NCBI GenBank assembly: GCA_016789105.1
Contig: JAEURN010000003.1
Location: 124,001 to 188,000 of the forward strand
DNA: 64,000 nt
From: Armatimonadota bacterium
GTDB taxonomy: Bacteria; Armatimonadota; Fimbriimonadia; Fimbriimonadales; Fimbriimonadaceae
Reading direction: 5' to 3'
Below are positions 14,923 to 31,666 of the stretch, one piece after another. The notes beneath the pieces are model-generated. The model saw nothing but the letters and a program-made list of their open reading frames with translations. It was not told the DNA's origin and made no database searches. The position numbers and the translations under genes are program-made. The stretch's first letter is position 1; the number at the start of each line of letters is the position of its first letter.

Positions 14923-15780
14923 TCACTTTTCGACATAGACCTGGATTTCGGAGATGCACAGGTCGCTATCGGTTTTTGCCGTCCCCTTTATAACGTCGTC
15001 AAAAAAAAGGGTCACCCCTTCAACCGGGCTAGACCCCGGGAAGTTCAAGGGTTGGAATCCCCGGTTCTCTGGGTTGACCGCGCATTCATAAAACGCACCA
15101 CCCAGCGCAACGCGAACCTTCTTCGGCCGGTTGTTGAGTGTCCACCGGTCGCCGAATTCGTCGTCTTTTTCTTTGTCGTACCCAGCCACGATGAGGATCC
15201 GGGTGACTTTGTATGGCCCTCCGTTGAACGTCACGGTCAACGACTCCCCGGAACCGTCGCCTGCCACACCCTCGCACCATGACGTTTCCACGTCCCCATC
15301 GTAGGCGGATGATGGCCGGCAATCCACCCCCCGTGGTGCAGGGTCTTTGGTGGAACTGGCAATCATGGACACCTCAGTCGGCTCCAGCAGCCTGTCGTTG
15401 GGCGTTTCCGAGCGGACGCCCATGGTCTGATCTGCCCCCATTGGCGGCAAGGAGGTTCCCTCCGGGGCTTGGGACGATTTCAGATAGGCCAGGACGGCAA
15501 TCAACGCAGTGAGGGCAAGCGCGCAGGCGACCAAAAGTGCGAGCACGATCCAAGCAATCGTACTTTTCCTGGCCGGGAGACTGCTCGGGGCTCCGCCTAG
15601 CTGGGAAGCTGGCTGCCGAAAATCCGGCTGGTGCGGTGCAGCCGGAGGCGGTTGGGGCGACGGTCGATGAACGGGTTGGCCCAAACCGGCACTCCCCGCC
15701 ACAACCAACGGCGTACCATCATTCAGGCAGTGGGTTTGGCTATCGCTGAACAACACCCGGCATTTGGGACATTCTTTCAT
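14923..15780 (-). CDS. Zinc-ribbon, single-pass membrane protein with a discoidin-like C-terminal domain
   Basis: A 285-residue protein. It begins MKECPKCRVLFSDSQTHCLN, a four-residue zinc ribbon, then a Pro/Gln-rich linker, one membrane helix at about residues 73-97 (STIAWIVLALLVACALALTA) and an outer domain. That domain (about 145-283) has AYDGDVETSWCEG and SLTVTFNGGPYKVTRILIVAG, which resemble the NADase-type glycan-binding or F5/8 discoidin fold. Topology is probably ribbon inside, discoidin-like domain outside. The ribbon-linker-helix design recurs in the protein at 38637-39869. Function unknown; glycan binding is a guess from the fold. Confidence 0.65.
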   Translation of the reverse strand: MKECPKCRVLFSDSQTHCLNDGTPLVVAGSAGLGQPVHRPSPQPPPAAPHQPDFRQPASQLGGAPSSLPARKSTIAWIVLALLVACALALTALIAVLAYLKSSQAPEGTSLPPMGADQTMGVRSETPNDRLLEPTEVSMIASSTKDPAPRGVDCRPSSAYDGDVETSWCEGVAGDGSGESLTVTFNGGPYKVTRILIVAGYDKEKDDEFGDRWTLNNRPKKVRVALGGAFYECAVNPENRGFQPLNFPGSSPVEGVTLFFDDVIKGTAKTDSDLCISEIQVYVEK

Positions 15781-15858: not shown

Positions 15859-16599
15859 ATGGGAAAAATGTCATCCAATCCAGAAGATATCAAACGCAGG
15901 CTCCGCGAGATTTTAGGGGCGTCGGAACAACTCCAAGCCAAGCTCAAAAACCTAACTCCCGAACAGAAGCAGAAACTTTCGGAACACTTGAAAGGCAAGG
16001 CTGCCGAACTGGAATCCGTGCATGAACGGTTGGAAACGGCGGGAGCCCTTTTCAAACCGCGCCGGTTGCCCAAACCCCAACCCGCCGATATTGCCGACTC
16101 ACCCGTTTTCAAGCACATCCGGTCGCTCCCCTATGAGCAAGGCGAGCGGCTCGTCAAATTCTGGGTGTGCGGTTGGCTCTTCCCCGCTGACAGCCCACCG
16201 TTGCCCAAATCCCTAACCCCTTCGACGTCGGCCAGATCAACCCCCAAAATCGCTGCCTATGCGCTTAAGAAGTTCGGTGTGCAAGCGGCCGATCCAGATT
16301 CCCCTCCTACGACACAAGGGGAATGGGTTGCCCAGCTGGCCCAGCAATGCCAAGCCGCGGTTGCCGGATATGGGCCGGCCGCGCACCTTTCAAGCCCCGA
16401 ATCCCAAGAGGCCCACTTGGTGGAGTTTGTCAGCGCCGTTGCTTTCAAATTCGGAGTTGCTCCCCGCCCAGAATCGACGGCGCTTGCTTTTGCCCCGCTC
16501 TTTGTCACGGCCCGGCCGGAGGTCCCTGATTGGGAAGAACACCGTATCGCTCGCGCCGTTCTCACGTCAATTTGGCTACAGAGCCTCGCAGCCGATTAA
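15859..16599 (+). CDS. Hypothetical protein, N-terminal coiled coil
   Basis: A protein of 246 residues, or 243 if translation starts at the second ATG (15868). Residues 5-65 form a charged helix (PEQKQKLSEHLKGKAAELES). The rest is mixed, with a Cys/Trp-containing stretch (KFWVCGWLFPADS) and a helix-rich end. No signal or membrane segment and no family recognised. TAGAGT lies just before the first ATG, which would suit a start at 15868. It lies 70 nt upstream of the coiled-coil paralogue operon and may belong with it, though a separate promoter precedes that operon. Confidence 0.6.
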   Translation: MGKMSSNPEDIKRRLREILGASEQLQAKLKNLTPEQKQKLSEHLKGKAAELESVHERLETAGALFKPRRLPKPQPADIADSPVFKHIRSLPYEQGERLVKFWVCGWLFPADSPPLPKSLTPSTSARSTPKIAAYALKKFGVQAADPDSPPTTQGEWVAQLAQQCQAAVAGYGPAAHLSSPESQEAHLVEFVSAVAFKFGVAPRPESTALAFAPLFVTARPEVPDWEEHRIARAVLTSIWLQSLAAD

Positions 16600-16615
16600 T
16601 ATTCTTTGCAAAGCC

Positions 16616-16644
16616 TTGCAATAACCTGTCGGTTCCGCTAGACT
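16616..16644 (+). promoter_or_regulatory. Sigma-70-type promoter for the coiled-coil operon
   Basis: TTGCAA (16616-16621), a 17-nt spacer and TAGACT (16639-16644) match the -35/-10 pattern well. The ATG at 16669 has GGAG 8 nt upstream. A second TTGCAA occurs 10 nt before the -35, which could be an operator half-site. Confidence 0.6.
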
Positions 16645-16668
16645 CAACCCTACCGTTTGGAGCAATAA

Positions 16669-17553
16669 ATGACCTTAGCCGAAAGTGTATCGATGGCCCA
16701 GAAGGGCCTTGAAACCCTGGAAACTCACGCGCAGACAACCCACGACGAACTCAGCGCGTTCCACCACCAATTCGACGCGCTTGCCGATGTCGTCGACAAA
16801 CTCAACGATCTGCAAAAACATATCCAGGATGCCAGCCACGAGCTTGAGGCGATGGAATCCAAAGCAGAAGAACGGGTTCACCAATTGACCGCGTCGCTCG
16901 ACCAACTGGTTTCTTCGTTGCACGAACAAGTCGAGAACGCCACGGCGGAGGTCACCGAATACGAATCGTTCATCGAACAAACAATCCAGGCCGCCCAGGA
17001 AAACAAATCAAACCGCGAAGAGCACGACCAGAACGCTCACGACAAACTCACCGCCCTCCGAGAAGCCCTGGACGAGGCCGCTGGCCATGTGGATGAGCAG
17101 GTTGCCAACTCCTCCACCGCGTTGGAACAACTCGACAGCGAAGCCGACAACTTCACGCAGACCTTGCAAGACCTGTTGGACGAAATCACCCAATCGGTTG
17201 CCGACTTCGAAGACCACATCGCCCAACGGATCCAGGAATTTGAGGACTCCGCCGAACAATTCATCCAAACCCTGGGCGAAGGTCTCGAGGAAATGGTCAA
17301 CACCGCCGGCGACCATGCCCACCAGGCCTCAACCGATATCGAACAGATGCTGAGCGGCGACTTCTTGGGACAAATGGAAGAACTCGCCGGCATGCTCAAC
17401 GACGGCTTGCAAGCCGTCGAAGACTATCTCGAAAAGCCGCTGGACATTTTGGATGGCCAAGTCGGAGACATCTTGGACAAGGTTCACGAAGCCATGGAAC
17501 TGTTCGACACCATCAAACCCATTTTGGAAATGTGCGAGGGCATCCCCCTTTGA
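16669..17553 (+). CDS. Acidic coiled-coil protein, paralogue 1 of 4
   Basis: A 294-residue, almost wholly helical protein rich in Glu, Gln, Asp and His, with very few Pro or Gly. Heptad-like stretches run through residues 10-230, for example FDALADVVDKLNDLQKHIQD. The last 60 residues turn more hydrophobic (YLEKPLDILDGQVGDILDKV). No signal peptide or transmembrane helix. It is the first of four genes of similar size and composition, spaced 7 to 14 nt apart. Family not recognised; resemblance to apolipoprotein-like or tape-measure-like helices is only compositional. It could be a scaffold or an FHA/kinase client because of the convergent operon. Confidence 0.75.
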   Translation: MTLAESVSMAQKGLETLETHAQTTHDELSAFHHQFDALADVVDKLNDLQKHIQDASHELEAMESKAEERVHQLTASLDQLVSSLHEQVENATAEVTEYESFIEQTIQAAQENKSNREEHDQNAHDKLTALREALDEAAGHVDEQVANSSTALEQLDSEADNFTQTLQDLLDEITQSVADFEDHIAQRIQEFEDSAEQFIQTLGEGLEEMVNTAGDHAHQASTDIEQMLSGDFLGQMEELAGMLNDGLQAVEDYLEKPLDILDGQVGDILDKVHEAMELFDTIKPILEMCEGIPL

Positions 17554-17560
17554 GGCCGCT

Positions 17561-18496
17561 ATGACTTTCTCAGAATTGATTGATGCCTTGGAGCAGCGGG
17601 AGAAGCTGCTGACCGAAACCCATGACCATATCGACCAGGTCAAACACGATCTAGACGCCTTCGACCACCTGATCGACACCATTCCCCAGCTCATGGAGTC
17701 GTGGGACATCCAGACCGTGCTCGACGAAGCCGAGAACTTTGGCTCACAAGTCGATGAGTTCGACCAGGAAATCCACACGCATGAAACTGAAGTTGCTTCG
17801 GAAGTCAGCGATGCCATCCACATGGTCGATGAAAACCAAAGCCATTTCGATAGTGCGTGGCAAGCCTTGGATTCCCTCCACCAAGAGCTCGATAACGACT
17901 CCTCCGAGCTCGAATCGCAGCACGACCAATTCGCCGCATTGCTCGAGCAGCTCGCCGACGCTCTGGTCGCGGAATTCAACCAGACTCAACAGTCGATTGA
18001 AGACCACACCCAAAACCTGGAACAGCATGCCGATGCGACCCACGACAAAGTCATGGAGAACGTCGACCACCGGAGCGGCGAACTCACGGACACCACCGCG
18101 AATGACTTCGACCACTTTGACGATGAGATCGAAGACATGGGGTCCAACCTGTTCCCGCAAGCCGTCGAAGGTCTGCTCGATTTGTTCGACCAAGGCTTTT
18201 CAAGCCTGAACGACGGGGCGACCGAGCTCGTGGATAGCCTTTCCGAACGGGCCGAAACCATCGTCAACGACATCATGGATCACATCCAAGATGCTGTGAT
18301 CCACATGTTCGAAGACCTCTTCCACAAGCTCGTGGAAGAAGTTTTGGCTGAGCTCATCGAAACAATCTTGGAATGCCTGGCCAAAGCGGCCATCGGCGCC
18401 GGGATCACGGGTGCGATCAGCGAGTTCCTGCCTATCCTCATGGTCGTCAAGCAACTGCTTGAATGGATCAACGACGCAATCGAGTTATTTGGATGA
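17561..18496 (+). CDS. Acidic coiled-coil protein, paralogue 2 of 4
   Basis: A 311-residue helical protein beginning MTFSELIDALEQREKLLTET. Residues 10-230 are Glu/Asp/His/Gln-rich coiled coil, as in its neighbours. This copy ends differently: EVLAELIETILECLAKAAIG and then GAGITGAISEFLPILMVVKQ form a hydrophobic region at about 255-295 that could insert in a membrane. The start was set at ATG 17561, 7 nt after the previous stop; the open frame extends further upstream but inside the previous gene. Family and function unknown. Confidence 0.75.
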   Translation: MTFSELIDALEQREKLLTETHDHIDQVKHDLDAFDHLIDTIPQLMESWDIQTVLDEAENFGSQVDEFDQEIHTHETEVASEVSDAIHMVDENQSHFDSAWQALDSLHQELDNDSSELESQHDQFAALLEQLADALVAEFNQTQQSIEDHTQNLEQHADATHDKVMENVDHRSGELTDTTANDFDHFDDEIEDMGSNLFPQAVEGLLDLFDQGFSSLNDGATELVDSLSERAETIVNDIMDHIQDAVIHMFEDLFHKLVEEVLAELIETILECLAKAAIGAGITGAISEFLPILMVVKQLLEWINDAIELFG

Positions 18497-18503
18497 CACA
18501 ACT

Positions 18504-19445
18504 ATGACAAGCTCTCCTGAATTTGGTGGAAGCGATTCCATCGCCAAACTGTTAGAACTCTCTTCCACGGTTCCCAAAGACATCGAGGACGTTGCCCAAC
18601 AGGCCAAACATGTTGCCGATGAGGGCACCCGCATCACCCAAGAAATTGAGCAGGCCGCCCACGAAGCCCACGACCGTATCCAGCACCTCCAGCAAAAATT
18701 GGCCGATTACGAAAACGACATCCGCCAATGGATGTCCGAACTGCAGGAGGCCGAACAAGAATTCAAGAACGGGGTGAATGACCTCAAAACGCGACTTCAA
18801 GAAGACAATTCGGATGTCACGCAGCACATCGAAGCCTCCGACCAAGCCGCCAACGAGCTCAAACACGGGCTGGAAGCGGCCCACCAGGCGGGCGACACCT
18901 GGCAACAGGAAACACAAGGCCTCTTCGATGAGCACGGGCAAGCCCTGGAACAGATGGGCCAGGATTTGCAGCACTCCTTCGACGAGTTGAGTGGCCGGAT
19001 CCAAGATTTCCACCATGCCGTCGATGAATCGCAAGCGCACGAATCGGATGGGATCCAAGACTTTTCGCAAGCAATGGACGACCACAGTTCCCGGCTCCGA
19101 CAGTCTTATGAGCACGGCGATGGGCAAATGCAGGATGCGGGATCTGATTTGCACGAGTTTTTGGGCAATCTCCACGCCCAAGACCTGACGCACGGGATCG
19201 AAGGAATCGCCGACTTGCTGCAAAAATCTATCGAAGACGAACTCAAGGCTCTGATCGACGACTTTGCCCAAGAACTGACATCAATGGGCGAGGACGTCAT
19301 CGACTCGATCGTCCACGACAACGACGAAACCAACAGCATCCAACTCGACCTCGGAGAAATTCTCGAACAACTCGAGAGCGTTTTCGACACTCTGAAGGAC
19401 ATTGTCGGCGAGCTCCAAAGCTTTGGGCTCGGCTCCTTCCTCTAA
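18504..19445 (+). CDS. Acidic coiled-coil protein, paralogue 3 of 4
   Basis: A 313-residue helical protein starting MTSSPEFGGSDSIAKLLELS. It has dense heptads with many Gln and His (IQHLQQKLADYENDIRQWMS; WQQETQGLFDEHGQALEQMG). The C-terminus LESVFDTLKDIVGELQSFGL is amphipathic and ends in a Gly/Phe/Leu tail, GLGSFL. No signal peptide or certain membrane helix. The ATG lies 7 nt after the stop of paralogue 2. Function unknown. Confidence 0.75.
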   Translation: MTSSPEFGGSDSIAKLLELSSTVPKDIEDVAQQAKHVADEGTRITQEIEQAAHEAHDRIQHLQQKLADYENDIRQWMSELQEAEQEFKNGVNDLKTRLQEDNSDVTQHIEASDQAANELKHGLEAAHQAGDTWQQETQGLFDEHGQALEQMGQDLQHSFDELSGRIQDFHHAVDESQAHESDGIQDFSQAMDDHSSRLRQSYEHGDGQMQDAGSDLHEFLGNLHAQDLTHGIEGIADLLQKSIEDELKALIDDFAQELTSMGEDVIDSIVHDNDETNSIQLDLGEILEQLESVFDTLKDIVGELQSFGLGSFL

Positions 19446-19459
19446 CATCAGGAATCACT

Positions 19460-20359
19460 ATGGAACTCGAACATCTATCCGACGCAACACTCAAAATCTA
19501 TCAAGACATCCTCGCGGAAACCGAGGATTTCGAACACAAAATCGCCGACTTTTTGCACAACCTGGAGACCGAAGAGCAGGAGTCGCTCCAAATGATCCAC
19601 GATTTCACCGCCAAAGCCGAAGAAATCGAATCGAAGATCGATAGCCTTCACAGTGAATTGGAACAGGCCGTTAACCACGCCAAACAAGAATTCCAAGAAG
19701 CCCACAATGCGGTGAGCCAACTGGCCGATCGCGCCCACGAGGCGGCAGGCAACCTCAACGCCGAACTGGAATCCCTGACCGAAACAACCAACACCGCCCA
19801 TTCCAATTTGGAGCAGCTGACCCAAGAAGGCGAACAATCCATCCACGAGTTCGAAGCCAACACTCGGCAAGAATTTGAAACGCTGATGCACGCGGTGGAG
19901 CAAACGGGCCAAAAAATGACGGACGAGACCGTCCACCACATCGAACAATCCCAAAGCGAAATGGAGGCCATGATCGAACAGTTGATCAGCCACCTAGCGC
20001 AAGAGGTATCCGACCAAATCCACAACGCAGTCGAAGATATCGAAAACACCCTGAACCAAGTTGTCGAAGATCTCAAGGAAGCTCTGGATACGCACCAGAA
20101 CGACCTGCACGACTCGGTCACAGGATCGCTCAACACCGCCGAATCGGACACCGGCAACCATGTTGATACGGTTCACCAAGGAGCCCAGCAAACACAATCC
20201 CGCGTCCATGATGCCGGAGCGGTGCTCCATGAAAAAGGCCAGACAATCGGCGAAACCAAAAACGACGTTGTCGAAGCCATGCACCTCTGCATGGCCGGGG
20301 TCGATACCGTCATTGGCATTTTCAACGAGCTCTACGAACTCGTCAACAATGTCATCTGA
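19460..20359 (+). CDS. Acidic coiled-coil protein, paralogue 4 of 4
   Basis: A 299-residue helical protein starting MELEHLSDATLKIYQDILAE. Coiled coil runs through most of its length, with Glu/Gln/His bias like paralogues 1 to 3, and it ends in a short hydrophobic helix, MAGVDTVIGIFNELYELVNN. It starts 14 nt after paralogue 3. Its stop codon overlaps the stop codon of the convergent FHA protein gene by 8 nt and no terminator separates them. Confidence 0.75.
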   Translation: MELEHLSDATLKIYQDILAETEDFEHKIADFLHNLETEEQESLQMIHDFTAKAEEIESKIDSLHSELEQAVNHAKQEFQEAHNAVSQLADRAHEAAGNLNAELESLTETTNTAHSNLEQLTQEGEQSIHEFEANTRQEFETLMHAVEQTGQKMTDETVHHIEQSQSEMEAMIEQLISHLAQEVSDQIHNAVEDIENTLNQVVEDLKEALDTHQNDLHDSVTGSLNTAESDTGNHVDTVHQGAQQTQSRVHDAGAVLHEKGQTIGETKNDVVEAMHLCMAGVDTVIGIFNELYELVNNVI

Positions 20360-23087
20360 CTTGTGGCCGGAACGATTTCCGTGGAGTATCCACGGGAACC
20401 AGCGGGGAGGGCGTGGGGTTGTCCATCGCTTTGGCCACCCATTCCCTCTCCCGGTTGAAGGCATCTAACTCCTCAACTTTCAAGTTGATCTCATCCCGAA
20501 TTTGGGCAAGTTCCGAATCCTTTTTGATGAGCGAATCCTCGCCACCCAACCCCCGGGCGACTGAAAGTCCATCCAACTGGCTCTTGGTGTGTCGCTTTAC
20601 CGAATCGATATGGTTGTCGAACACTTGCTCGCAATCGGCGATGACCCGCTTGACAATGCCCTGGTAATGCTTTTTGATGTTATCCCGAATCTTCTCGCTT
20701 TCCTCATGGATGACATCGCGCTGCTTGATCTTGAACGCTTTGAAATTGTAATAAAGCACAAGCGGGATCGCGATGAGGGCGATGAGGACCAAGGCATAGT
20801 CTCCCATCCCCGGGGCGCCCTTGTCGACGCTTTGCTTGATCGTCTCCCGGGTCGCTGCCAGCAGTTTGCTCCTTGAGGCGCCAAAGATCAGGGCGCCAAT
20901 CGAGAACATAGAGAAGAAGAAGGTCATCGAATACCGTGTCTTTGTCAACAGGTATGTGAACATGTTCTCCATCCGCTCTTCGGTAGAAACCGATGCGGTC
21001 ACGTAGCGGTCGGTGAGCGCGGCGTTGATCTCTCCACGGACGCCAAGGATCTTGTCTTCGTAGTTCGCCAGCTTGATTTGGCTTGATTCGAACTTGGGCA
21101 GACCGGAAAGCAGACCTTGGAATTTTTGGTAGAGCCATCGGAACCCGACCTGGGTTTCGTGGGCCATCGGCGATCCGGCGGTGTCGCCAAACACGCGGTT
21201 GTAAAGTTCTGCTCCAAACTTTTGCTGGGCTTGGGGCAAGATCACCAAATCCATGATCGCCCGGTGGGTCTCCAACGCGGTGGCATGGGGGTTGCCCGGC
21301 GGCACCAGCTTGATGGTAACGGGAGATTTTCCGAAAGTCACCAGTTCCAGTTGGTCGATGTATTGGTCCGTGTTGGAGGCCAGGCTTGCGACAATCGAGA
21401 GGTCGCCAAATTGGTTCACGGCCCGGTCCAGGTCGCGCTCGATGTTTGTGGAAACCGATTCAAAAATGCTCTTGGCTTCGGTCACGCTGGCCACGGTTCC
21501 CAAAAGCCGGTGCTCGGTTTCGTCGAGTTTGCGGCGAAGCAGGTTGACTTCCGTTTCCACGCCCGGCCTCAGACTATCGCAAACCTTGCCGATCCGGTTG
21601 AGCAGCGACTTGCGGGCGTCCCGGATCCGGTCATCCAAAACTGCCTCACGCATATTGGTGCGGAACTGTTCCAAAAACCCTTGCAATTCACCTTCGATGG
21701 CATGGACGCCGTCAATCCGGCACTCAACCAAGGTTCGGATCTGCTTGGTGCCGCGGACAATCCGCGCATCGTGGCGCAAATCGTCTAAAACGATGGCTTG
21801 TTGTTCGGCATCGAGCCGCCCCGATGTCACAGCAACGATTACCACGCCCTTCGTTTTTTCCTCGCTCACCCACTGCAAGGCATTGTGGTCGTTCTTGGTC
21901 GGGTAGTCGCCGTTCACAACCAGGAACAGCAAATCGCAATCCCGCTTGAGCCGGCCGATGAATTCCGGAGAAATGATCTTCGTGTCTTTGCGGAGGGTTA
22001 AAACCGGGTGGACGGCCGCCCGCCCTTGGGCGTCGGCGACATGCCGGTATCCCAAAACAACCGGCACCTCATAACCCCAATCGGCTGCCCCAGAAAGCGG
22101 TGAGCCGCCAAGCTTCACCCCGTGTTGGCTGCTGGTGTCTTCCAAACGCCACTCGGGAGGCATTCCGGGCTCGGCCAAATTGGTCAGTTGGGCGTGTTGC
22201 CGCGAGATGAACGGCTCCTTCACCGGGATATCCGGGGAAGCAGCGCCAGCAGAAGGGCGGCCGATGGTGAACACGCGCTTGTCGTCATCAAGAACAACCG
22301 TCCGGTTCTCCGCCGCCGTCTGCACGATCAGGCAGGTCTGCATGCCGCTGTGTCGCCAATAAAGTTGGGGGGCAACCGAGGCGAGCTGGCACAGCCCCCG
22401 GAAAACCGCATCGACCAACTCGGCGTCTGCGCCGATCACCGCCGACGAAAGCCGGGCTTTGCCATGGTCAGAAAGCTCGTTGACGAGTTCCAGGATCGGC
22501 TCGTACTCGTCGTAATGCTCAGCCCGGACTTTGAGGTGATCTTCGATATCTTTGAAGGGGCTCGGTGGCTGATCAGCTGGTTGCTCTTCTCTGACTCTTG
22601 GCCCGCGGTCAATTCTCGGGCGCTTTGTCCCCCCCGCGCCGGTCAGCGCATCGGCTTGGGACTGAACTTCTCCAATCCTCTCGTTCAAGTCGTCCACATT
22701 GTTTTGGGACTTGATTGCCTCAATATCCTCTTGGGAAATATCGGGGCCCTTCGGAGTCGGAACTTCAATGTCTGTTTCAATATTGATCAGCCTCCGGGGC
22801 TGTTGCGGTTCAGCAGTTTCCGGGCTTCCGTGGGAACCAAGGCGCGCTTCCCTTTCCAGGCGCCTCTTTTCGTTCTCAGCGGCCCGATTAACCCGCCTTT
22901 GTTCATTGGCCAACCGCCGTTCTTCATTCTTTTTTTCAAGTTCGGCCCTCTTGGCTTCCCTGGCGGCCCGCTTGGCCTCGGCCGCATCTGGCCCGGTCGC
23001 AGGCGTCCCAAGTTGTTCCAGGGCTTCCCCTGCGGGTTGCCCCTCACCTGCCCCGGGTTGTGCCGGCGTTCCCTCGTCTTCAGCCAT
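20352..23087 (-). CDS. FHA-domain membrane protein with dynamin-like layout and no P-loop
   Basis: A 911-residue protein, last gene of the eight-gene operon. Residues 30-90 are a charged Ala/Glu/Arg/Lys helix. An FHA domain spans about 265-365 with FTIGRP, ISRQHAQL and LEDTSSQHGVKL, so the phospho-threonine-binding Arg/Ser/His are present. Residues 380-450 (LLFLVVNGDYPTKND, VVIVAVTSG) look like the core strands of a GTPase, but no GxxxxGK[ST] is present anywhere. A long helical region follows, then two membrane helices at about 720-738 and 764-782, and a helical tail. The order (G-like core, helical bundle, paired membrane helices, helical return) resembles bacterial dynamin-like proteins. 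GTP binding is doubtful; a pseudo-GTPase scaffold recruited by phospho-Thr is the likeliest reading. Confidence 0.7.
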   Translation of the reverse strand: MAEDEGTPAQPGAGEGQPAGEALEQLGTPATGPDAAEAKRAAREAKRAELEKKNEERRLANEQRRVNRAAENEKRRLEREARLGSHGSPETAEPQQPRRLINIETDIEVPTPKGPDISQEDIEAIKSQNNVDDLNERIGEVQSQADALTGAGGTKRPRIDRGPRVREEQPADQPPSPFKDIEDHLKVRAEHYDEYEPILELVNELSDHGKARLSSAVIGADAELVDAVFRGLCQLASVAPQLYWRHSGMQTCLIVQTAAENRTVVLDDDKRVFTIGRPSAGAASPDIPVKEPFISRQHAQLTNLAEPGMPPEWRLEDTSSQHGVKLGGSPLSGAADWGYEVPVVLGYRHVADAQGRAAVHPVLTLRKDTKIISPEFIGRLKRDCDLLFLVVNGDYPTKNDHNALQWVSEEKTKGVVIVAVTSGRLDAEQQAIVLDDLRHDARIVRGTKQIRTLVECRIDGVHAIEGELQGFLEQFRTNMREAVLDDRIRDARKSLLNRIGKVCDSLRPGVETEVNLLRRKLDETEHRLLGTVASVTEAKSIFESVSTNIERDLDRAVNQFGDLSIVASLASNTDQYIDQLELVTFGKSPVTIKLVPPGNPHATALETHRAIMDLVILPQAQQKFGAELYNRVFGDTAGSPMAHETQVGFRWLYQKFQGLLSGLPKFESSQIKLANYEDKILGVRGEINAALTDRYVTASVSTEERMENMFTYLLTKTRYSMTFFFSMFSIGALIFGASRSKLLAATRETIKQSVDKGAPGMGDYALVLIALIAIPLVLYYNFKAFKIKQRDVIHEESEKIRDNIKKHYQGIVKRVIADCEQVFDNHIDSVKRHTKSQLDGLSVARGLGGEDSLIKKDSELAQIRDEINLKVEELDAFNREREWVAKAMDNPTPSPLVPVDTPRKSFRPQVR

Positions 23088-23090
23088 GTG

Positions 23091-23633
23091 TCAGTCCCCG
23101 ACTTCCAAGGTTCCGGCTTTCAGCTTTTCTGCTTCCACCGCAACATCCTTCCTCAGCTCTGCGATTTCTTCGATCTTTTTTCGGGACTGCTGTTGCAATT
23201 TTGCAACCCGCTCTTTGAACGATTTTTCATTTTTCAACTTGAATTCAGCTTGGACGACCTTTCGGATCGGCGCGGATTCCTCCGGCTTCTCGGCAGCTCT
23301 TTGGGCCACGGTCTCAGCCCGTTTTTCAGAGCGCTTTGCCATGCGGGAGAAGTTGGCTGCGCGGGCTTTCTCGCGGTCCAGTTGGCGCTCGAGGTTGCGG
23401 ATCCGGGTATTCGCCGCATCGAGTTCGGAACCCAGGCGACGCGCCAAGGCCAGGACTTGCTCCAGAGCAGCAGACTGCGTCCGAACACCTTCGCGCGAGA
23501 CGATTACCAAATCGGCGATCTGGGTGACAAGCGACCGATCAGCTTTCGGCTTGGCCTTTGGTGATGGGTTGGCCGCAATGGACTTTTTGGGCTGCGCTTT
23601 AGACGAAGAAGATTTTCGTGGAGTTGAGGGCAT
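23091..23633 (-). CDS. Small basic coiled-coil protein
   Basis: A 180-residue protein. Residues 1-32 are Ser/Lys/Pro-rich and probably disordered; residues 40-175 are a long coiled coil (LARRLGSELDAANTRIRNLE; ERQLDREKARAANFSRMAKR). No signal peptide or membrane helix. The ATG at 23633 follows the PP2C stop after 5 nt; a TTG at 23642 that overlaps that stop is a possible alternative. The next gene starts 3 nt downstream. It may bridge the phosphatase and the FHA membrane protein, but that is inference from position. Confidence 0.65.
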   Translation of the reverse strand: MPSTPRKSSSSKAQPKKSIAANPSPKAKPKADRSLVTQIADLVIVSREGVRTQSAALEQVLALARRLGSELDAANTRIRNLERQLDREKARAANFSRMAKRSEKRAETVAQRAAEKPEESAPIRKVVQAEFKLKNEKSFKERVAKLQQQSRKKIEEIAELRKDVAVEAEKLKAGTLEVGD

Positions 23634-23638
23634 AGTGG

Positions 23639-24391
23639 TCAATTGAGCCGCAGGACAGCTGCGGAGCAGTGGTCATGGCTGCGGTTGGCTACCGCAAGCC
23701 GGACGATTTCTTGGGCCGCAACATCGGGCTCCATGGTTTGGACAACCCGGTTGATTTCTAGTTCGCCCACATATTCTGTGATGCCATCTGAAGCCAAAAC
23801 GATGCGGTCACCCGGGAGAAGCCGTTCGACCCGGATATCCGGTTCTACGGGTTCTCCCCCCAAAAACCGGGAGAGGACATTGGCCCGGCTGCCAAAAACG
23901 GGATCACTTTTGACGCCAGCGTCGTCGGCGCCTTCGCGCTCAACGACCGACAGGTGGTCTTTGGTCAAACGCATCATGTAATCGCCGCGATATAACCCTG
24001 CGCGCGAGTCTCCAACATGGCCGACGACCAGGTCTTCCCCGCAGGCAACGGCGATGACGACGGTGGTCCCCATCCGATCAAACTCCGGGTTGGCTTGCTG
24101 ACGATCCCGGATGCGGTAATTGATTTGTTCGATGACCGAGCGGATCCCAAGAGGCGCTTGTTCGAATCCAGCATCCAAATAGTGATTCAAAACCGTGTCG
24201 ACCGCAATGCGGCTTGCTACTTCGCCCCCGGCGTATCCGCCCATGCCATCGGCAACTACCGCAACGGCCCCCTGGGCATTGACATATCCCCCACAGGCAT
24301 CCATCAACACCTTGGCCGAGTTGCCTTGTGAAACCGCTGAACCGAAAGCGTAGCTTCGGCCGAAGGGAGAATTCCCAGACATCTGGATCAC
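23639..24391 (-). CDS. PP2C family protein phosphatase
   Basis: A 250-residue metal-dependent Ser/Thr phosphatase, expected to reverse the adjacent kinase. Metal motifs are VVADGMGGYAGGE (48-52) and VVGHVGDSRAGLYR (124-130), with GTTVVIAV and VLASDGITEY (201-203). The final motif, normally GxxDN, is RSHDHCS here, so the last metal-ligand Asp is kept but the following Asn is His. The GTG start overlaps the kinase stop (GTGA); an ATG three codons on is possible. The kinase-phosphatase coupling by overlap supports joint function. Confidence 0.9.
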   Translation of the reverse strand: MIQMSGNSPFGRSYAFGSAVSQGNSAKVLMDACGGYVNAQGAVAVVADGMGGYAGGEVASRIAVDTVLNHYLDAGFEQAPLGIRSVIEQINYRIRDRQQANPEFDRMGTTVVIAVACGEDLVVGHVGDSRAGLYRGDYMMRLTKDHLSVVEREGADDAGVKSDPVFGSRANVLSRFLGGEPVEPDIRVERLLPGDRIVLASDGITEYVGELEINRVVQTMEPDVAAQEIVRLAVANRSHDHCSAAVLRLN

Positions 24392-25785
24392 CGCCGCACC
24401 CGGCCTCCGACCCGGCCCAAGGTTTCGCAGACCTCCGCCATTTCTGGGCGGACGGTGGGGGATTTGCTCAGCATGCGGCTCACGAGGTCATCCAACTCGG
24501 GATCAACCTGCTCCCCGACCTTGCTCAAAACGCGGGCCACCGGCTCTGGCGAAACATTCAAGTGGCCCGCATGGATTTCGGCCACCGAGGCGGCATTCGG
24601 AAACATCCGCTGACCCGTGAGCCATTCATAAAAAACGCAGCCGAGCGAATAAACATCGGATTTGAACGTCAGTTGGCGGTGGCTGATGTGCTCGGGGGAT
24701 TGGTAGTTCGCCGACCCGAACGGGTTCTTGATCGATGTCAATTGCTCCATCGTGATTCCAAAGTCAATCAGGGTCAAGGTTTCAGCGGCCTCGGCGTAAG
24801 TCATCGGTGCCTTCACCCCCCGGGTGAACCGGTTCCGGTACATCAAGTTGTCGGGCTTGACATCGCAATGCACCCGGCCGATCCGGTGGAGCTCTTCCAA
24901 CGCCTGGGCCGCCGAGAGACACAGGGCGCAAGCGTCGCGGAGCTTTGGCCGATCCCCGACTTCTTGCCACAGCCCTTTGACCGTGCCACCGTCGATGTAT
25001 TCCATCACCAATACGCCGCGGTCATCTCCCGTCCGGGATATCGCCACCGCCCTCGGGGCCCGATCGCTGCGCAATGAACGCAAAACCTCAAACTCGTTTT
25101 CGATGCGCTTGTTGGCCTGCTCCCGGCCTTCCCCATAATCGATCGGGATCTTCAGGGCCACGGTCTGCCCGCCGCGGCGGCCTTCGTAAACCGCCGCCAT
25201 GCCGCCCTTGGCGATCAACTTGACCACTTCGCAATCCATGACCATCGGCAAATCCTCGCGCGAGTTGGTGTCCAGGAACGACACCTCATGCTTCAACGTG
25301 AACGAGATCCGGTCTTGGTGCCGCAGCAGCAAGGGGACGTTGGGATCCAACCGGCGCTCATTGACGAACGTTCCGTTTTTTGAATCGAGGTCTTTGATGT
25401 ACCACTTGCCGTTGTCGAACCAGATCAACGCATGCGTGCGCGACCCGATATCCCCGACAAGCGGCGTCAAATCGTAATCCACCGCCCGCTTGAGACCCGG
25501 GAAAGGCTTCCCAACCAGGTTTTCTGTGAAGGTCAACCGGGTCGCCCCGTGGGGGTGTTGCAAGTTGGGGCATTGATCCGAGCTGAGGGGGATGATGCCC
25601 TGTGACCGGGGATCCATCTTTCCCGAAAGGTCGCTGATCGAGGTTGGTATTGGCGCGACACTTATGGCCGCCGCTTTGGAACCCAAGTTCTTGTTCCCAA
25701 AAAATGACCAGACAATCGCCCCGAGCGCTAGCAAAACAACCGCGCCGATCAGGCCGAATAAAAGGGTAGTCGAATTGATATCCAT
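24388..25785 (-). CDS. Membrane Ser/Thr protein kinase with FHA domain
   Basis: A 465-residue protein in an unusual order: an N-terminal membrane helix (8-28), an FHA domain (about 85-170, with GSRTHALIWF and LDSKNGTFVNERRL), then a Hanks-type kinase domain (about 185-460). Kinase landmarks are IAKGGMAAVYEG (Gly loop), VALKIP (K212), VHCDVKPDNLMY (HCD replaces HRD; D308), LIDFGIT (341-343) and NYQSPEHIS. The HRD arginine is missing, which often means activity independent of activation-loop phosphorylation. Most bacterial kinases carry the membrane helix after the kinase domain, so this topology is distinct. It follows the lipoprotein gene by 3 nt and overlaps the phosphatase gene. Confidence 0.9.
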   Translation of the reverse strand: MDINSTTLLFGLIGAVVLLALGAIVWSFFGNKNLGSKAAAISVAPIPTSISDLSGKMDPRSQGIIPLSSDQCPNLQHPHGATRLTFTENLVGKPFPGLKRAVDYDLTPLVGDIGSRTHALIWFDNGKWYIKDLDSKNGTFVNERRLDPNVPLLLRHQDRISFTLKHEVSFLDTNSREDLPMVMDCEVVKLIAKGGMAAVYEGRRGGQTVALKIPIDYGEGREQANKRIENEFEVLRSLRSDRAPRAVAISRTGDDRGVLVMEYIDGGTVKGLWQEVGDRPKLRDACALCLSAAQALEELHRIGRVHCDVKPDNLMYRNRFTRGVKAPMTYAEAAETLTLIDFGITMEQLTSIKNPFGSANYQSPEHISHRQLTFKSDVYSLGCVFYEWLTGQRMFPNAASVAEIHAGHLNVSPEPVARVLSKVGEQVDPELDDLVSRMLSKSPTVRPEMAEVCETLGRVGGRVRR

Positions 25786-25788
25786 CGC

Positions 25789-26397
25789 TTAATCCCCCCA
25801 GTCGATGCCCGAATGCTGCGACCCGCCACCCGTTCGTGGCTTGGGCTTCGGCCGGCTACCGGACGAAGAGCCCGATGGCTTGGTTCCGCCCGATTTGCCC
25901 GAGCCAGTCGATCCCGATGGCTTTGGCCGGTTCCCGCCCGCCGTCTGACCGGATGCCGACCAAGTGACCGGGCTGAAATCGGGCTTGATATCGTTTTTGG
26001 GGCCAGCCGCAAACGAGAATCCATCGAACTCCAACTTGCCCGCCCCTTTAGTTTCAACAACAACTTCCACCAACCCTTTGTTCAGCCGGCAGGACTTGAT
26101 CTCCCCGCCGTCAATCCGCCAACGGATCGGGTCAGTTTCGGCCAATTTGAACTTATCGCTGCCCAAACTGACACGGAAGGTGAGGTTCCGGGTCTTGCCT
26201 TCGGCTGAGTTGCCGACCATGGCGATCGTCGGTTTCGAGATGACGATCGGCACTGCGCTGGTCTCATCGGGGGCCGGAATCCGGGGCTTGTTCGGATTCC
26301 CGGTGTTGGGGATCAAAACGGAGCATCCGCACAGGAACACCAAGGAAAGGGCCAATCCGGCCAAGGTCGAGATTCGGTTAATGATGCTGATTTCCAC
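25789..26397 (-). CDS. Small lipoprotein of the kinase/FHA operon
   Basis: A 202-residue protein. A GTG at 26397 follows the strong SD AAGGAG and gives a lipoprotein signal: STLAGLALSLVFLCGC, with the acylated Cys in the LCGC box. The mature part has one beta-rich domain, LTFRVSLGSDKFKLAETDPI then KLEFDGFSFAAG, that aligns by eye with a similar domain in the neighbour at 26378-27208. The tail is Ser/Gly/Pro/Lys-rich. It overlaps that neighbour by 20 nt. Function unknown; likely an envelope partner of the kinase. Confidence 0.7.
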   Translation of the reverse strand: MEISIINRISTLAGLALSLVFLCGCSVLIPNTGNPNKPRIPAPDETSAVPIVISKPTIAMVGNSAEGKTRNLTFRVSLGSDKFKLAETDPIRWRIDGGEIKSCRLNKGLVEVVVETKGAGKLEFDGFSFAAGPKNDIKPDFSPVTWSASGQTAGGNRPKPSGSTGSGKSGGTKPSGSSSGSRPKPKPRTGGGSQHSGIDWGD

Positions 26398-27208
26398 TAC
26401 GATCTCCTTTGTTGGGATTGCTGGGAGATGATCCGCTGGGTGGCTTTTTGCCGTCCGGCAGTCTGGGCGGCCGAGTGCTACCCGATTGCCCGGCAGCGCC
26501 GGTCGGCCCCGTACCCCCCACAGTCCCGGTCTTACCAGTACTCCCCGTGGCAGAAACTCGCCGCGAACCAGAACCTGCGCCGGTACCATTTGTTCCCGAA
26601 GGTTTTTGTTCAACCGGCTTTGGCTTCGAGTAGGTGAATGTCTGCTGCTGGCTCTCTGCGTCGAGCAGCGTGCCGTCCGCAAGTTGGATCTTCGATATCT
26701 CGACGTAGCCGTCCCCGGCCAACCGCACCCGGACTTGGATCTTATCGTCGGCGGTCAGGTCGACGCTGAGCGGTTCACAGCCGCTGTAATTGATTTTTGC
26801 CGGCTTGGAGCGGTTGATCGAGCGCGATTCCGATCCTAGGCTGAAGCTGAACAAAACCGTCAAGATGTCCCCTTCGGTCTTTTTCCCGTAAACCGTCGCT
26901 CGGGGTTTGCCTTTGATCGTCGCCGGAACATCTTCGGGCTGGCCGCCAGAAACCTGGACAGGGGCGGGCTTTGACTTGCCCCCCACCAGCTTGGCCACGG
27001 CAAACACCAAGCCGAGCGCCACAACGGCGATCACCGCATAAAGGACGTAAGGGGGTTTGGAAACGCCCGGTTGAGAGGGTGCAGCATATGGTTGCTCGCG
27101 CCGGGGGCTTTGCGGAAGGATCCCACTGACCGGCACATGCACCCATTCCCCGACCCGGGGGCGTTGGCGGGGGTCATACGGGCGGGATTGGGGAGGGGTG
27201 AATGCCAT
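26378..27208 (-). CDS. Single-pass membrane protein of the kinase/FHA operon
   Basis: A 276-residue protein with a Pro/Arg-rich cytoplasmic start, one membrane helix (about 53-73, YVLYAVIAVVALGLVFAVAK) and an outer beta-rich domain at about 105-175 (VLFSFSLGSESRSINRSKPA; VRVRLAGDGYVEIS) that resembles the lipoprotein encoded next. The last 90 residues are Gly/Ser/Thr/Pro-rich. Its start codon shares one base with the stop of the FHA lipoprotein gene (TGATG). Family not recognised. Confidence 0.65.
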   Translation of the reverse strand: MAFTPPQSRPYDPRQRPRVGEWVHVPVSGILPQSPRREQPYAAPSQPGVSKPPYVLYAVIAVVALGLVFAVAKLVGGKSKPAPVQVSGGQPEDVPATIKGKPRATVYGKKTEGDILTVLFSFSLGSESRSINRSKPAKINYSGCEPLSVDLTADDKIQVRVRLAGDGYVEISKIQLADGTLLDAESQQQTFTYSKPKPVEQKPSGTNGTGAGSGSRRVSATGSTGKTGTVGGTGPTGAAGQSGSTRPPRLPDGKKPPSGSSPSNPNKGDRSGNQHH

Positions 27209-28893
27209 CAGAACGTCGCATCTCCGTGGTCAATGCCGATCACTTCCAAAACAGTGTCCCCCATGCGGATTTTGTCCCCCACTTGCAAAACCTCCCGGTC
27301 GTCAATGGTCTGCCCGTTCACATAGGTCCGGTTGGTGTTGCTCCGGTGTTCAATTTCGACCCGACCACCGTTGATGAGCCGGATTCGGGCGTGGAGCCGG
27401 GAGATCTTGCCGTCGCCCGGCAAGCCCAAAAACCCGTCCTGGAACAAAAAGCCGTCGCTGCGGCCGATTTCAGTGTCGTTGCGCAGGGCTACTTCCCGGC
27501 CCGCGGCCCCGCCGCTGACAACCCGCAAGACCGCCGACCGGTGGGTTGGGACGAACAGGTTTCCCATCGTGTCTTCCCCGGTTGTGACGTCGCCCGCGTT
27601 GGATCCGCCATACAGGTTGTTGACCCCCATGGTCGGCCCGCCGATCGTCGAATCGTTATCCCGGAATGATCCCGCAACATATCCGGAGTGCCCCCCGCCC
27701 ATCTGGAAACCGGTTTCGCCCATCGTCGCATCCCCGGCCCTTGCCGCCACTGCCCCAGGGTGGATCGGGGGGGCCGTGATGGGGCCAGATCCCCGTTGCA
27801 TGCCGCCGACCGTGGTATCGCCGACCGTCGCATCGTTGAATTGCATGGAATTCAAAGCTGGACTGGCCATCGGAACCGCTGGCGCTGGCGCCCGCGAACC
27901 GACGCCGCGGCGGCGGATCACCAACACGGAAATCGCCAGGGCAACCAAGGCCACCGCCAAAATCGTGGCCAACTGGTACGTGAACTTCTCGGGGGCGATC
28001 TCGGCCACATCAGTTCCGCCGTCGTGGGTGACACTCAGTTTGAAAGGGGGAACCACATCGGCACCCGAAATTGGGAACCGGACGGCATAACGGTCGCCTA
28101 CCGAACGTCGGACGGCTTCGTTCACTTTGTCAAAGTCGGCGCTCACCGAACCGGACGCCTGGATGTATTCGCCACCACTGTCGGAGGCGATCTGCTTTAA
28201 GGCCGGATCCTCCGTCCCGTAATTCAAAACAATCACCGGCTGGGTGGAAGGCCACTTGATCGGCTCTCCGGTCTTTTCGTTGATGATCTTCTCACCCGTG
28301 TCTTTCCCGCCGGTCCGCACGACGGCAACCGTCGCATAAACCGCTTTGCCATTGGCAGGCGATTCTTTGGACACATTGTTCGCAATCAGGATCCCGGCCA
28401 ATGTGCGAGTCGCCTGGGTGACGCCGAATGCAGGGTCTTTGAATTGGAATTCGGCTGCAGGTACGAACGCGTTGAGCTTCACGGGATCTACAGACTTGCC
28501 GTTGGCCGCCGTCAGCGCAATGAAATGGATTGATTCCGACCGCTTGAGTTGCCGGACGGTTTCGATCATTGATTTGCCTTGTTGGTCTTCTTTCCCCGAA
28601 AGGTCGAGGAGCACAGAAACCCCAACTTTCGCGCCTTCTTCCCTCGATGGATAGACAGAGGGTTTAACCTTTTTGCCCAATACCTCGACAGAAAAGGCGT
28701 CGGCCTTCAACCCTTTTACCGGTTGCGTGTGGGCGTCGTCTTTGAAGACCCTTACATATTGCCGGACCGATCCTTGCCCGCCCTCCTTGATCACAGCCGG
28801 TTGCGAGACAAATTCGATGCGGCTCGAATTCTCAGAACAGGCAGTGAGGGCCAACAACGACAAAACTGAAATGTACGTAGCCAGCTTATTCAT
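27208..28893 (-). CDS. Lipoprotein with vWA-like outer domain, membrane helix and FHA domain
   Basis: A 561-residue protein that should span the membrane. LSLLALTAC is a lipobox (Cys19). Residues 30-300 form an outer region with a vWA-like strand, VGVSVLLDLSGKED; the MIDAS DxSxS is incomplete (DLSGK), so metal binding is doubtful. A membrane helix (308-326) is followed by RRR and a cytoplasmic linker (350-445) with seven Thr-Gly motifs, then a canonical FHA domain (475-552: TEIGRSDG, ISRLHARIR, NTNRTYVNGQTI). This layout would pass an outside signal to a phospho-threonine-binding domain inside. It is the second gene of the operon. Confidence 0.8.
   Translation of the reverse strand: MNKLATYISVLSLLALTACSENSSRIEFVSQPAVIKEGGQGSVRQYVRVFKDDAHTQPVKGLKADAFSVEVLGKKVKPSVYPSREEGAKVGVSVLLDLSGKEDQQGKSMIETVRQLKRSESIHFIALTAANGKSVDPVKLNAFVPAAEFQFKDPAFGVTQATRTLAGILIANNVSKESPANGKAVYATVAVVRTGGKDTGEKIINEKTGEPIKWPSTQPVIVLNYGTEDPALKQIASDSGGEYIQASGSVSADFDKVNEAVRRSVGDRYAVRFPISGADVVPPFKLSVTHDGGTDVAEIAPEKFTYQLATILAVALVALAISVLVIRRRGVGSRAPAPAVPMASPALNSMQFNDATVGDTTVGGMQRGSGPITAPPIHPGAVAARAGDATMGETGFQMGGGHSGYVAGSFRDNDSTIGGPTMGVNNLYGGSNAGDVTTGEDTMGNLFVPTHRSAVLRVVSGGAAGREVALRNDTEIGRSDGFLFQDGFLGLPGDGKISRLHARIRLINGGRVEIEHRSNTNRTYVNGQTIDDREVLQVGDKIRMGDTVLEVIGIDHGDATF
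27559..27834 (-). repeat. Repeated Asp/Thr-Gly motifs in the FHA lipoprotein linker
   Basis: Residues 354-445 contain NDATVG, DTTVGG, GDATMGE, NDSTIGG, GPTMG, DVTTG and DTMG. The consensus is roughly D-[AST]-T-[VIM]-G. Each supplies a Thr in an acidic context, the kind of site expected for a Ser/Thr kinase and an FHA ligand. The sites lie on the cytoplasmic side if the helix at 308-326 is membrane-spanning. Confidence 0.75.
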
Positions 28894-28935
28894 CGCAGTC
28901 CCCCATGATATCAGTTCCCGGCAAAATTTGCCCTC

Positions 28936-30573
28936 TCACTTCGACACCCTTAGCACCATCGCGCCGGTCTCACGCTCTTTCGGCGCGCCCCGGTCTGACT
29001 CCTCAGTCAGCGGCACGACATTCGAGGAAAAGTTTGCGGACTCTCCGCCCTTCCAAGCCTTGTTCGGCTTGAGCTCCGAAAGCCAGAACAGTTTGGCGGC
29101 GACGCGGTACGTTGCGGATCCCTTCCATGGGTCGTCGGAAAGGCGGAATGTCTTTTGCCCCCACCGGACGGCCAGACGGCTGCGGTTCTCGGATTGCGGC
29201 GACACATCGCAGAAAAGCGCCGCGTATCCAAACTCCCTCGGGTGGGCAACCAACGCATCGTAGCGGTCCTTTCCCGCCCCCGCCGACCAAGCACCCAAAG
29301 ATCCGGGCTTACTATTCCCAGCAAATGAGTAAGATTCCAGCCCCTTTGTTGGGCCCAACCGCCGGATATAGGTGGCCCATTCAAAATCTGACCGGGGCAG
29401 AATCGCCAGATCCTTGTAAAACGCGTTCTGCCACTGGGGCGATGTCGGAACTTGGCTGACTCCGTCAATCCGGATCGACGAGGCAAACCAACGCAATGTC
29501 GGGCCATCTTTCGCCGAGATATCCACCGCCTGGTTCGGGCTGCCACCGCGGGTGAATAACCCCTCTGGCGGTGGACGAACCCAAAGCCGGGCAGCGCTGG
29601 AACCGCCTTCGTAGGTTTTTCGGTCCACGACACCCATATAAATCAGCCGGTTGTTTTCTTTTAATGCTGGGTCGAACAACGACCCCCCAAACCCGTAACC
29701 GGCAAACCGGCTGCGCCCATCGGGGCCGGCAGCAACGGACCGGTAGGAGTCTGCATCCCCCAAGGTGCTGATGCCTTGGCCATCGCTTGATCCCACCCCA
29801 TCGCCAAGGATCACGATGTCACCGGCAAAGACTTCCATCTGATCGGCCCGCCCGGAGACATCGACGAATTGCTTGGCCGAGACGGGGGAATTCTCTGGCC
29901 CAGATGTGCCGTTGTGCCGGTTGCCGGTCGATTTCAAGATGCTGCCGATATCGGCCGGATTCTGCTTCGCACCGGCAGCTGCGGGGTTGGAGGCCACCAA
30001 ATCCTCGAGTCCGCCCGGAAGCATGGAAGCGGCTGTTTTGGCCCGGCCATCCGGATAATCGAAACCGACGGCGTCAGCCACATCCGCAAGCGGGAGCGAG
30101 GGCCCGTCGAACGAGATATAGGCGGCATAATCCTTTCCCTTGCGTTTGCCAACCACGACGGCCTCGCTCTGCTTGGGGATGTAGAGCAGATCCCCGGATT
30201 TCAATTGGTAGCCATCCCCTATTAGGCTGTTCAACCACTTAAGGCTCTCGTCGCCTCCGATTTGGTCGCCAAAACCTTCATCGCCGGTATCGATCAATCG
30301 GGTCTTGGTTCCGGGGTCGTCGCCTTCCCATTTCCGGAAAATGGGCACCGCCCATTTCCCTCGGTCGTAACGGTACGCCACTTGCCCATCGGCCCGGACC
30401 AAAACCCAGCGCTTTGATGCCGTGGCATAGGTTGCCAAAGTAGAGAGCGCAGGTGCTGACTTGGGCAGGAAGAGGCCCTCCGACTGCAGGTCGCCAAACA
30501 CGCCGCATTTGCCTTGTGACGCACTTTGGCCGTGGCCCACTACAGCAACGAATAGAAAAGTCGATATCCCCAT
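28936..30573 (-). CDS. Secreted hypothetical protein, first gene of the kinase/FHA operon
   Basis: A 545-residue protein with a short N-terminal hydrophobic segment (ISTFLFVAVVGHGQSAS) that looks like a Sec signal. The mature protein has repeated aromatic and Gly/Asp stretches (RWVLVRADGQVAYRYDRGKW; GFGGSLFDPALKENNRLIYM) and no recognised catalytic motif. It is separated from the FHA lipoprotein gene by 42 nt. Its leader contains a complex base-paired region. It may be the extracytoplasmic sensor or ligand of the system. Family not recognised. Confidence 0.65.
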   Translation of the reverse strand: MGISTFLFVAVVGHGQSASQGKCGVFGDLQSEGLFLPKSAPALSTLATYATASKRWVLVRADGQVAYRYDRGKWAVPIFRKWEGDDPGTKTRLIDTGDEGFGDQIGGDESLKWLNSLIGDGYQLKSGDLLYIPKQSEAVVVGKRKGKDYAAYISFDGPSLPLADVADAVGFDYPDGRAKTAASMLPGGLEDLVASNPAAAGAKQNPADIGSILKSTGNRHNGTSGPENSPVSAKQFVDVSGRADQMEVFAGDIVILGDGVGSSDGQGISTLGDADSYRSVAAGPDGRSRFAGYGFGGSLFDPALKENNRLIYMGVVDRKTYEGGSSAARLWVRPPPEGLFTRGGSPNQAVDISAKDGPTLRWFASSIRIDGVSQVPTSPQWQNAFYKDLAILPRSDFEWATYIRRLGPTKGLESYSFAGNSKPGSLGAWSAGAGKDRYDALVAHPREFGYAALFCDVSPQSENRSRLAVRWGQKTFRLSDDPWKGSATYRVAAKLFWLSELKPNKAWKGGESANFSSNVVPLTEESDRGAPKERETGAMVLRVSK

Positions 30574-30898: not shown

Positions 30899-31666
30899 AT
30901 GATTGGCACCGCCATATTCCCGCTATTGATCGCCACCGCTACCGCCACCCCGGCAATCCCCGTCCGGCCGATCCCACCCCTCAACCAGTCCGTCAAACTC
31001 AAGCCGGTCGGAACTTACGGAACGCCTTACGACCTCAAAGGATACAAGTACCGCGTCAAACTCGATGACGAGTGGTACGAGCTCAATCCGGGAAACACGA
31101 TCCTCGATTCCGAACGGGATGGCAAACCGGTTAAGGAGCGGTTCGTGGTCAGGATCTGGTTCCAGGAATTCAAATACCAAGACTACAAGATCCTTACCCA
31201 AACATTTTTGACCTACCGCGACTACCAAAAGCGGGGCTCAAGCAGTTGGATCTTGGAGGGCAACACCGTTTCCATGGTGACCTACACGATGTCCGGGGAC
31301 TTTGACCCCGACAGCGTTGATTGGGACGACACCAATTACCTGTTCCTCCCAGTGATCGGGTCGCGGTCGCCAACGATCGACCAAATCAAGCCCTATTTGC
31401 AGGCGGCCAACGGCAACACCGATAAGGGGCTGGAACGGTACGTGTCAAACTCGACCGTCGCCGCCTACCCCACCTATATCGATAACATGGACGAAAGGGA
31501 TTGGGTGCTTCCCGTCTTCCCCGATTCCACTGATGGCGAAGTCTGGTTCCACTTGCCAACCTTGGACTCTGAAGAGAACGACAGTATCTGGGACGAGAGC
31601 TACTTCTTCACCAACAAGAAAACCATGCAGTCGATCTTGGCCTATATGGGAAGGCGACTAAACTAA
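30899..31666 (+). CDS. Secreted hypothetical protein
   Basis: A 255-residue protein with a possible short signal (MIGTAIFPLLIATATATPA) and a polar mature part rich in Asp, Tyr and Trp (KLDDEWYELNPGNTILDSER; RIWFQEFKYQDYKILTQTFL). No family recognised. AAGGA lies 5 nt before the ATG. It is divergent from the kinase/FHA operon, sharing a 325-nt intergenic region, so regulation may be shared. Confidence 0.6.
   Translation: MIGTAIFPLLIATATATPAIPVRPIPPLNQSVKLKPVGTYGTPYDLKGYKYRVKLDDEWYELNPGNTILDSERDGKPVKERFVVRIWFQEFKYQDYKILTQTFLTYRDYQKRGSSSWILEGNTVSMVTYTMSGDFDPDSVDWDDTNYLFLPVIGSRSPTIDQIKPYLQAANGNTDKGLERYVSNSTVAAYPTYIDNMDERDWVLPVFPDSTDGEVWFHLPTLDSEENDSIWDESYFFTNKKTMQSILAYMGRRLN

Follow-up and report, generated by a model that had tools for sequence, protein, structure and literature searches.

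An accessory block of ~16 kb, present in one species only among the phylum genomes compared (n = 290 others), carries two convergent operons, one (g1 to g8) encoding a membrane Ser/Thr kinase, a PP2C phosphatase, and FHA proteins and the other (a1 to a5) encoding mainly acidic coiled-coil paralogues. The window analyzed was the whole 64-kb stretch G000:C3:124001-188000 of contig JAEURN010000003.1, from a genome of 2.7 Mb. We read the block as a membrane phosphothreonine (phospho-Thr) signaling cassette linked to a dedicated coiled-coil output, and we assign this reading a probability of roughly 45%. Taken by itself, the signaling cassette is highly probable, and the coiled-coil proteins, whose function we infer, are given slightly less than even odds of being its output.

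To our knowledge, the targets of bacterial FHA proteins and the inputs of Ser/Thr kinases are mostly unknown. Here a writer, an eraser, a candidate docking array, and a candidate output lie within ~16 kb, so that a complete path could be rebuilt. Should phosphorylation prove to control the assembly of the coiled-coil proteins, these would represent a novel type of signal-gated bacterial scaffold.

The variable locus and the distribution of its genes

The block lies between conserved flanks, with tRNA-Arg and gcvPA on one side and genes for a monooxygenase and a lipoyl ligase on the other. Between these flanks, the congeners G005 and G006 carry 11 to 13 kb of unrelated genes, and none of the genes of the block was present in the locus regions read from the remaining congeners. 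The block amounts to an island confined to one species, in a locus whose content varies, and its presence/absence pattern as a whole fits a single unit that was gained or lost. It is also larger than first reported, as the minus-strand gene disc (14923-15780), divergent from a1, belongs to the island as well. The gene at 30899-31666, which adjoins tRNA-Arg and encodes a protein with a hydrophobic N terminus that was unmatched in the congener regions read, may be part of it too. No integrase was seen, and tRNA-Arg was rejected as the integration site, there being no 12-mer copy of the tRNA 3' end elsewhere within the window. Congener sequences from the same locus (L054:5696-19000 and L055:3815-14574) contained glycoside hydrolases, a LacI-type regulator, and envelope proteins, marking it as a site of variable cargo.

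Distribution was assessed by exact matching of short peptide patterns or by tblastn in its plain form, and because remote homologues may escape such scans, the absences apply to relatives within their reach: g1 and the a2-a5 family were absent from the 290 other phylum genomes (a2-a5 also from viral contigs), and g8 was absent from them bar one weak match in G237, over its N-terminal coiled-coil region. Relatives of g8 were likewise missing from broader genome contigs, plasmids, and viral contigs. Within the phylum, g5 had relatives in its kinase domain only (~31 to 41% identity), as it did in the broader genome contigs and plasmids, where none of these relatives was accompanied by the cluster. 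Among the matches listed for g2, coverage was essentially that of the FHA domain alone. The disc protein combines a zinc ribbon, a transmembrane (TM) segment, and an extracytoplasmic NADase_transloc/discoidin domain (PF25302, 1.8e-13) and is a probable sensor; it was absent from its own genus and family, and its homologues, of which one is a kinase fusion, came from distantly related genomes within the phylum.

The kinase operon and its phospho-Thr circuit

All eight genes g1 to g8 lie on the minus strand, from 30573 to 20352. The preliminary description had reported an operon of eight genes with gaps of at most 42 nt, and its ORFs were recovered as claimed, tightly packed, with successive gaps of +42, -1, -17, +3, -4, -4, and +3 nt (range, -17 to +42). 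Pfam bore out the further claim that a kinase with its own FHA domain, a PP2C phosphatase, and two additional FHA proteins share this operon. The product of g5 (24388-25785) is TM anchored (TM 7-25) and contains FHA (7.9e-16) and Pkinase PF00069 (7.4e-36) domains, with the motifs VALK, HCDVKPDN, DFG, and SPE of a Hanks-type kinase. The neighboring g6 (23639-24391) matched PP2C PF13672 (4.6e-20) and the Stp1 family model (1.2e-41, under the cutoff of that model) and has the metal-binding PP2C motifs VADGMGG, GDS, and SDG; judged by their motifs, both the kinase and the phosphatase look active. The additional FHA domains were found in g2 (3.8e-11) and g8 (1.8e-7).

The protein encoded by g2 (27208-28893) comprises a lipobox, an extracytoplasmic region, a TM helix (308-326), a Thr-repeat linker, and a C-terminal FHA domain. 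Its extracytoplasmic N terminus is weakly VWA-like: TIGR03436 scored only 16.8 bits, far under its cutoff of 81, hhalign gave an E value of 0.06 over just 51 columns, DLSGK stands at the MIDAS position where VWA domains have DxSxS, and the single-sequence AlphaFold2 model reached a pLDDT of 36. The 911-aa protein of g8 (20352-23087) is helical over long stretches, crosses the membrane with two predicted segments (TM 720-738 and 760-778), and, its FHA domain aside, is an orphan. Described earlier as an FHA membrane protein with a pseudo-GTPase layout, it retained the first part of this description, and the second was not confirmed, as there was no Pfam GTPase match and no P-loop (GxxxxGK[ST]) was seen in its sequence; the single-sequence AlphaFold2 model (pLDDT of 40) was unusable, a degenerate GTPase fold being beyond its reach.

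Among the remaining genes, g1 (28936-30573; 545 aa), the first of the operon, is an ORF whose product is perhaps exported; its hydrophobic segments all stay below 1.5, which leaves the earlier label of a secreted protein weak. The single-pass envelope protein of g3 (26378-27208) and the lipoprotein-like envelope protein of g4 (25789-~26397) have a domain in common, as had been proposed, with a local score 13 SD over shuffles (10 SD for the domain by itself), and g7 (23091-23642) encodes a basic coiled-coil protein (pI 10.3). No credible Pfam family was found for g1, g3, g4, or g7, and neither Pfam, NCBIfam, nor PADLOC has a dedicated family for g1, g3, g4, g8 (FHA domain aside), or a1.

The linker that separates the TM helix of g2 from its FHA domain (aa 336-455, 27529-27888, minus strand) contains six D-x-T-[VIMT]-G repeats, against a mean of 0.07 in shuffled sequences, 0 of 5,000 of which reached 6. 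No comparable Thr repeats were present in the other proteins of the block, save a lone TMG site in disc (GADQTMGVRS). In Mycobacterium tuberculosis, acidic residues are enriched upstream of Thr at PknA-dependent sites (PMC7164672), and acidic residues stand just ahead of Thr in the g2 repeats, which are likely a phospho-Thr docking array. Phospho-Thr binding by FHA domains is defined by GR, SxxH, and NG residues (PMC1262709). The FHA domain of g2 has GR, SRLH, and N-R (for N-G), that of g8 has GR, SRQH, and H-G (H for N), and that of g5 has SRTH and NG and is missing GR, so that the full triad was found in 0 of the 3 domains. Of the three proteins, g2 and g8 are plausibly the better phospho-Thr readers. 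A circuit that writes, erases, and reads phospho-Thr is plausible from these features; the closed circuit suggested earlier is supported in its writer, eraser, and FHA genes and only partly as a whole, because no FHA domain has a complete GR/SxxH/NG set.

A separate FHA/VWA set lies on contig C10 of the same genome (L130:5942-9983), where a PP2C is also encoded; its VWA protein starts with repeated DPNRT[IVA], which may be considered a second candidate phospho-Thr array.

FHA, vWA, kinase, and PP2C parts are known in conflict systems (PMC7159879), and the kinase domain of the block matched the PD-T4-6 and MADS kinases in PADLOC. Together with the variable locus, this would suit an anti-phage defense or conflict island in which the kinase and FHA proteins regulate and the coiled coils act as effector or trap. 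We consider this improbable, however, as the PADLOC matches are accounted for by the kinase fold, g1 to g4, g8, and a1 were unmatched in PADLOC, no domain typical of a toxic enzyme, a nuclease, or a pore turned up, and none of the neighbors examined was a defense gene.

The facing coiled-coil operon

The operon on the plus strand had been described as one of four acidic coiled-coil paralogues facing the kinase operon. The paralogues and the convergent arrangement were confirmed, and the gene count was not, as a1 (15859-16599) makes five. The product of a1, the first gene, is a basic protein of 246 aa (pI 8.8) that matched no family and is not a paralogue of the others. It is followed by a2 (16669-17553; pI 4.1), a3 (17561-18496; with a hydrophobic C-terminal helix), a4 (18504-19445), and a5 (19460-20359), all on the plus strand and with pI values of 4.05 to 4.39; the starts of a3 and a4 are probably 17561 and 18504, within longer ORFs. 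The 3' ends of a5 and g8 overlap by 8 nt (20352-20359).

True paralogy of a2 to a5 was established by shuffling, with all six pairs beating 300 of 300 block-of-7 shuffles (z, 4.8 to 5.6) as well as all heptad-register shuffles (z, 6.8 to 9.4); mere coiled-coil composition was thereby ruled out as the source of their similarity. In Pfam, they gave dozens of weak coiled-coil matches and no family of their own. Codon use in a2, a3, a4, and a5 equaled or exceeded expectation (z, 2.4, 0.8, 0.0, and 1.4, respectively) and in most of the signaling genes fell short of it, which would fit a higher abundance of the coiled-coil proteins. An initial indication of strong codon adaptation in a2 to a5 weakened once amino acid composition was controlled.

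Relation to known systems and a possible mechanism

The signaling kit is known in kind, and the whole gene set matches no named system; no Pfam, NCBIfam, or PADLOC model names it. The earlier statement that no named system has this gene set thus holds for the whole and not for its signaling half, since FHA-kinases and FHA/kinase/phosphatase clusters have been published (PMC1262709) and a similar kit recurs in G282, of the same phylum. There, contig C1 (L150:522-15409) encodes, on one strand, membrane kinases, a PP2C, and VWA-FHA, VWA-TM, and TM-FHA-FHA proteins; the VWA-FHA protein has the architecture of g2, and an NADase_transloc/discoidin domain is fused to a kinase. Unlike the block, the G282 kit has several kinases that carry sensor domains of their own and is without g8, the coiled-coil paralogues, and g1, g3, and g4, and no orthology of g8 or g1 was found. 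What is new here is g8, g1, g3/g4, a1, the a2-a5 array, and the Thr-repeat linker of g2.

A signaling kit without coiled-coil arrays at L150 is what would be expected if two unrelated units, an ordinary FHA/kinase/PP2C/VWA cassette for sensing and an independent array of coiled-coil genes, adjoined by chance in the island, at a locus whose content differs across the genus, two congeners having unrelated cargo there. The operons are moreover convergent and hence not cotranscribed, and as there is no homologous cluster, the link between them rests on adjacency and shared presence. Against this, all tested distinctive genes of either operon were missing from the 290 other genomes, and g7 and g8, within the kinase operon, are themselves coiled-coil rich and have no L150 counterpart. 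We regard this chance adjacency as the strongest rival explanation and as rather unlikely.

The type VI PpkA/PppA/Fha pathway likewise brings together a kinase, a PP2C, and an FHA protein. As claimed earlier, type VI genes were lacking: there were no structural genes in the block, the sheath protein TssC/VipB (PF05943) was absent genome-wide (positive control, Escherichia coli), and no secretion genes were found among the neighbors examined. In type VII terms, no FtsK-like EccC/EssC ATPase was found by Pfam among the block genes. An export apparatus, in which g1 to g8 would form a membrane machine and a2 to a5 its helical substrates, could draw on the resemblance of g8, a large membrane protein with an FHA domain, to type VI regulators and on the small, acidic, helical nature of a2 to a5, with marginal WXG100 scores (0.025 to 0.03, under the cutoff). 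These scores, however, are just part of the dozens of weak coiled-coil matches, a2 to a5 have no visible signal peptide, and the block has no ATPase, channel, or secretin-like gene; like the missing TssC, this leaves export with a small chance of being correct. GAP1-N2 GTPase-centric systems share, in their third theme, linked kinase, PP2C, and vWA genes (the last represented in the block by the weakly VWA-like g2), zinc ribbons, and membrane position with the block (PMC7159879); their GTPase and GAP1 components had no Pfam match within it.

For the signaling cassette with its own coiled-coil output, the following route may be envisaged. Sensing or binding at the envelope would involve g2, through its VWA-like region outside, together with disc, g3, and g4, and the membrane kinase g5 would then phosphorylate the cytoplasmic linker of g2 on the Thr of its D-x-T-[VIM]-G repeats. 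Once phosphorylated, the repeats would dock the FHA domain of g8, and perhaps also that of g2, and so recruit g8 to the membrane. There, g8, which has long helices and two TM segments, would act together with the basic coil g7 to nucleate or anchor assembly of the acidic a2 to a5. Removal of the phosphates by the PP2C g6 would release the assembly, the output being a signal-dependent scaffold or filament attached to the membrane. In this full form, a phospho-Thr switch that builds and dissolves a coiled-coil membrane scaffold, with a2 to a5 gathered by g8 onto the multi-Thr array of a VWA-like sensor, the proposal is speculative and, on balance, unlikely.

The catalytic motifs and domains, the tight operon and its convergent 8-nt overlap, the Thr repeats between TM helix and FHA domain, and paralogy above the coiled-coil background speak for the mechanism. 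So do the codon use of a2 to a5, the unit-wise presence/absence at a conserved locus, the phylum-wide lack of the distinctive genes, and the fusion of the disc domain to a kinase elsewhere. Predicted charge complementarity between g7 (pI 10.3) and a2 to a5 (pI 4.1 to 4.4) would also favor it. The incomplete FHA triads and the near confinement of Thr repeats to g2 speak against it.

Precedents lend the mechanism support by analogy. In archaea, a kinase phosphorylates the tail of the VWA protein ArnB, which is bound by the FHA protein ArnA (PMC6509490); ArnA, ArnB, and the kinases ArnC and ArnD are soluble and repress archaellum genes, whereas the block is membrane bound, with its VWA-like region outside, and has a coiled-coil array. 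Control of a coiled-coil scaffold by a Ser/Thr kinase is seen with DivIVA/Wag31 under AfsK or PknB, AfsK phosphorylating the scaffold DivIVA (PMC13432765), and novel coiled-coil filaments have been described in cyanobacteria (PMC7002697). The block differs from DivIVA/Wag31 and the filament proteins in having four tandem acidic paralogues of no credible family beside a kinase operon of their own.

Two other loci were read and rejected as relatives of the block, namely, L101, with a kinase that has its FHA domain on the C-terminal side, and L086, a Tad pilus cluster. The latter, from an uncultured bacterium, places Tad-type pilus genes and a CpaF with an FHA domain beside FHA proteins, a PP2C, and an FHA-kinase.
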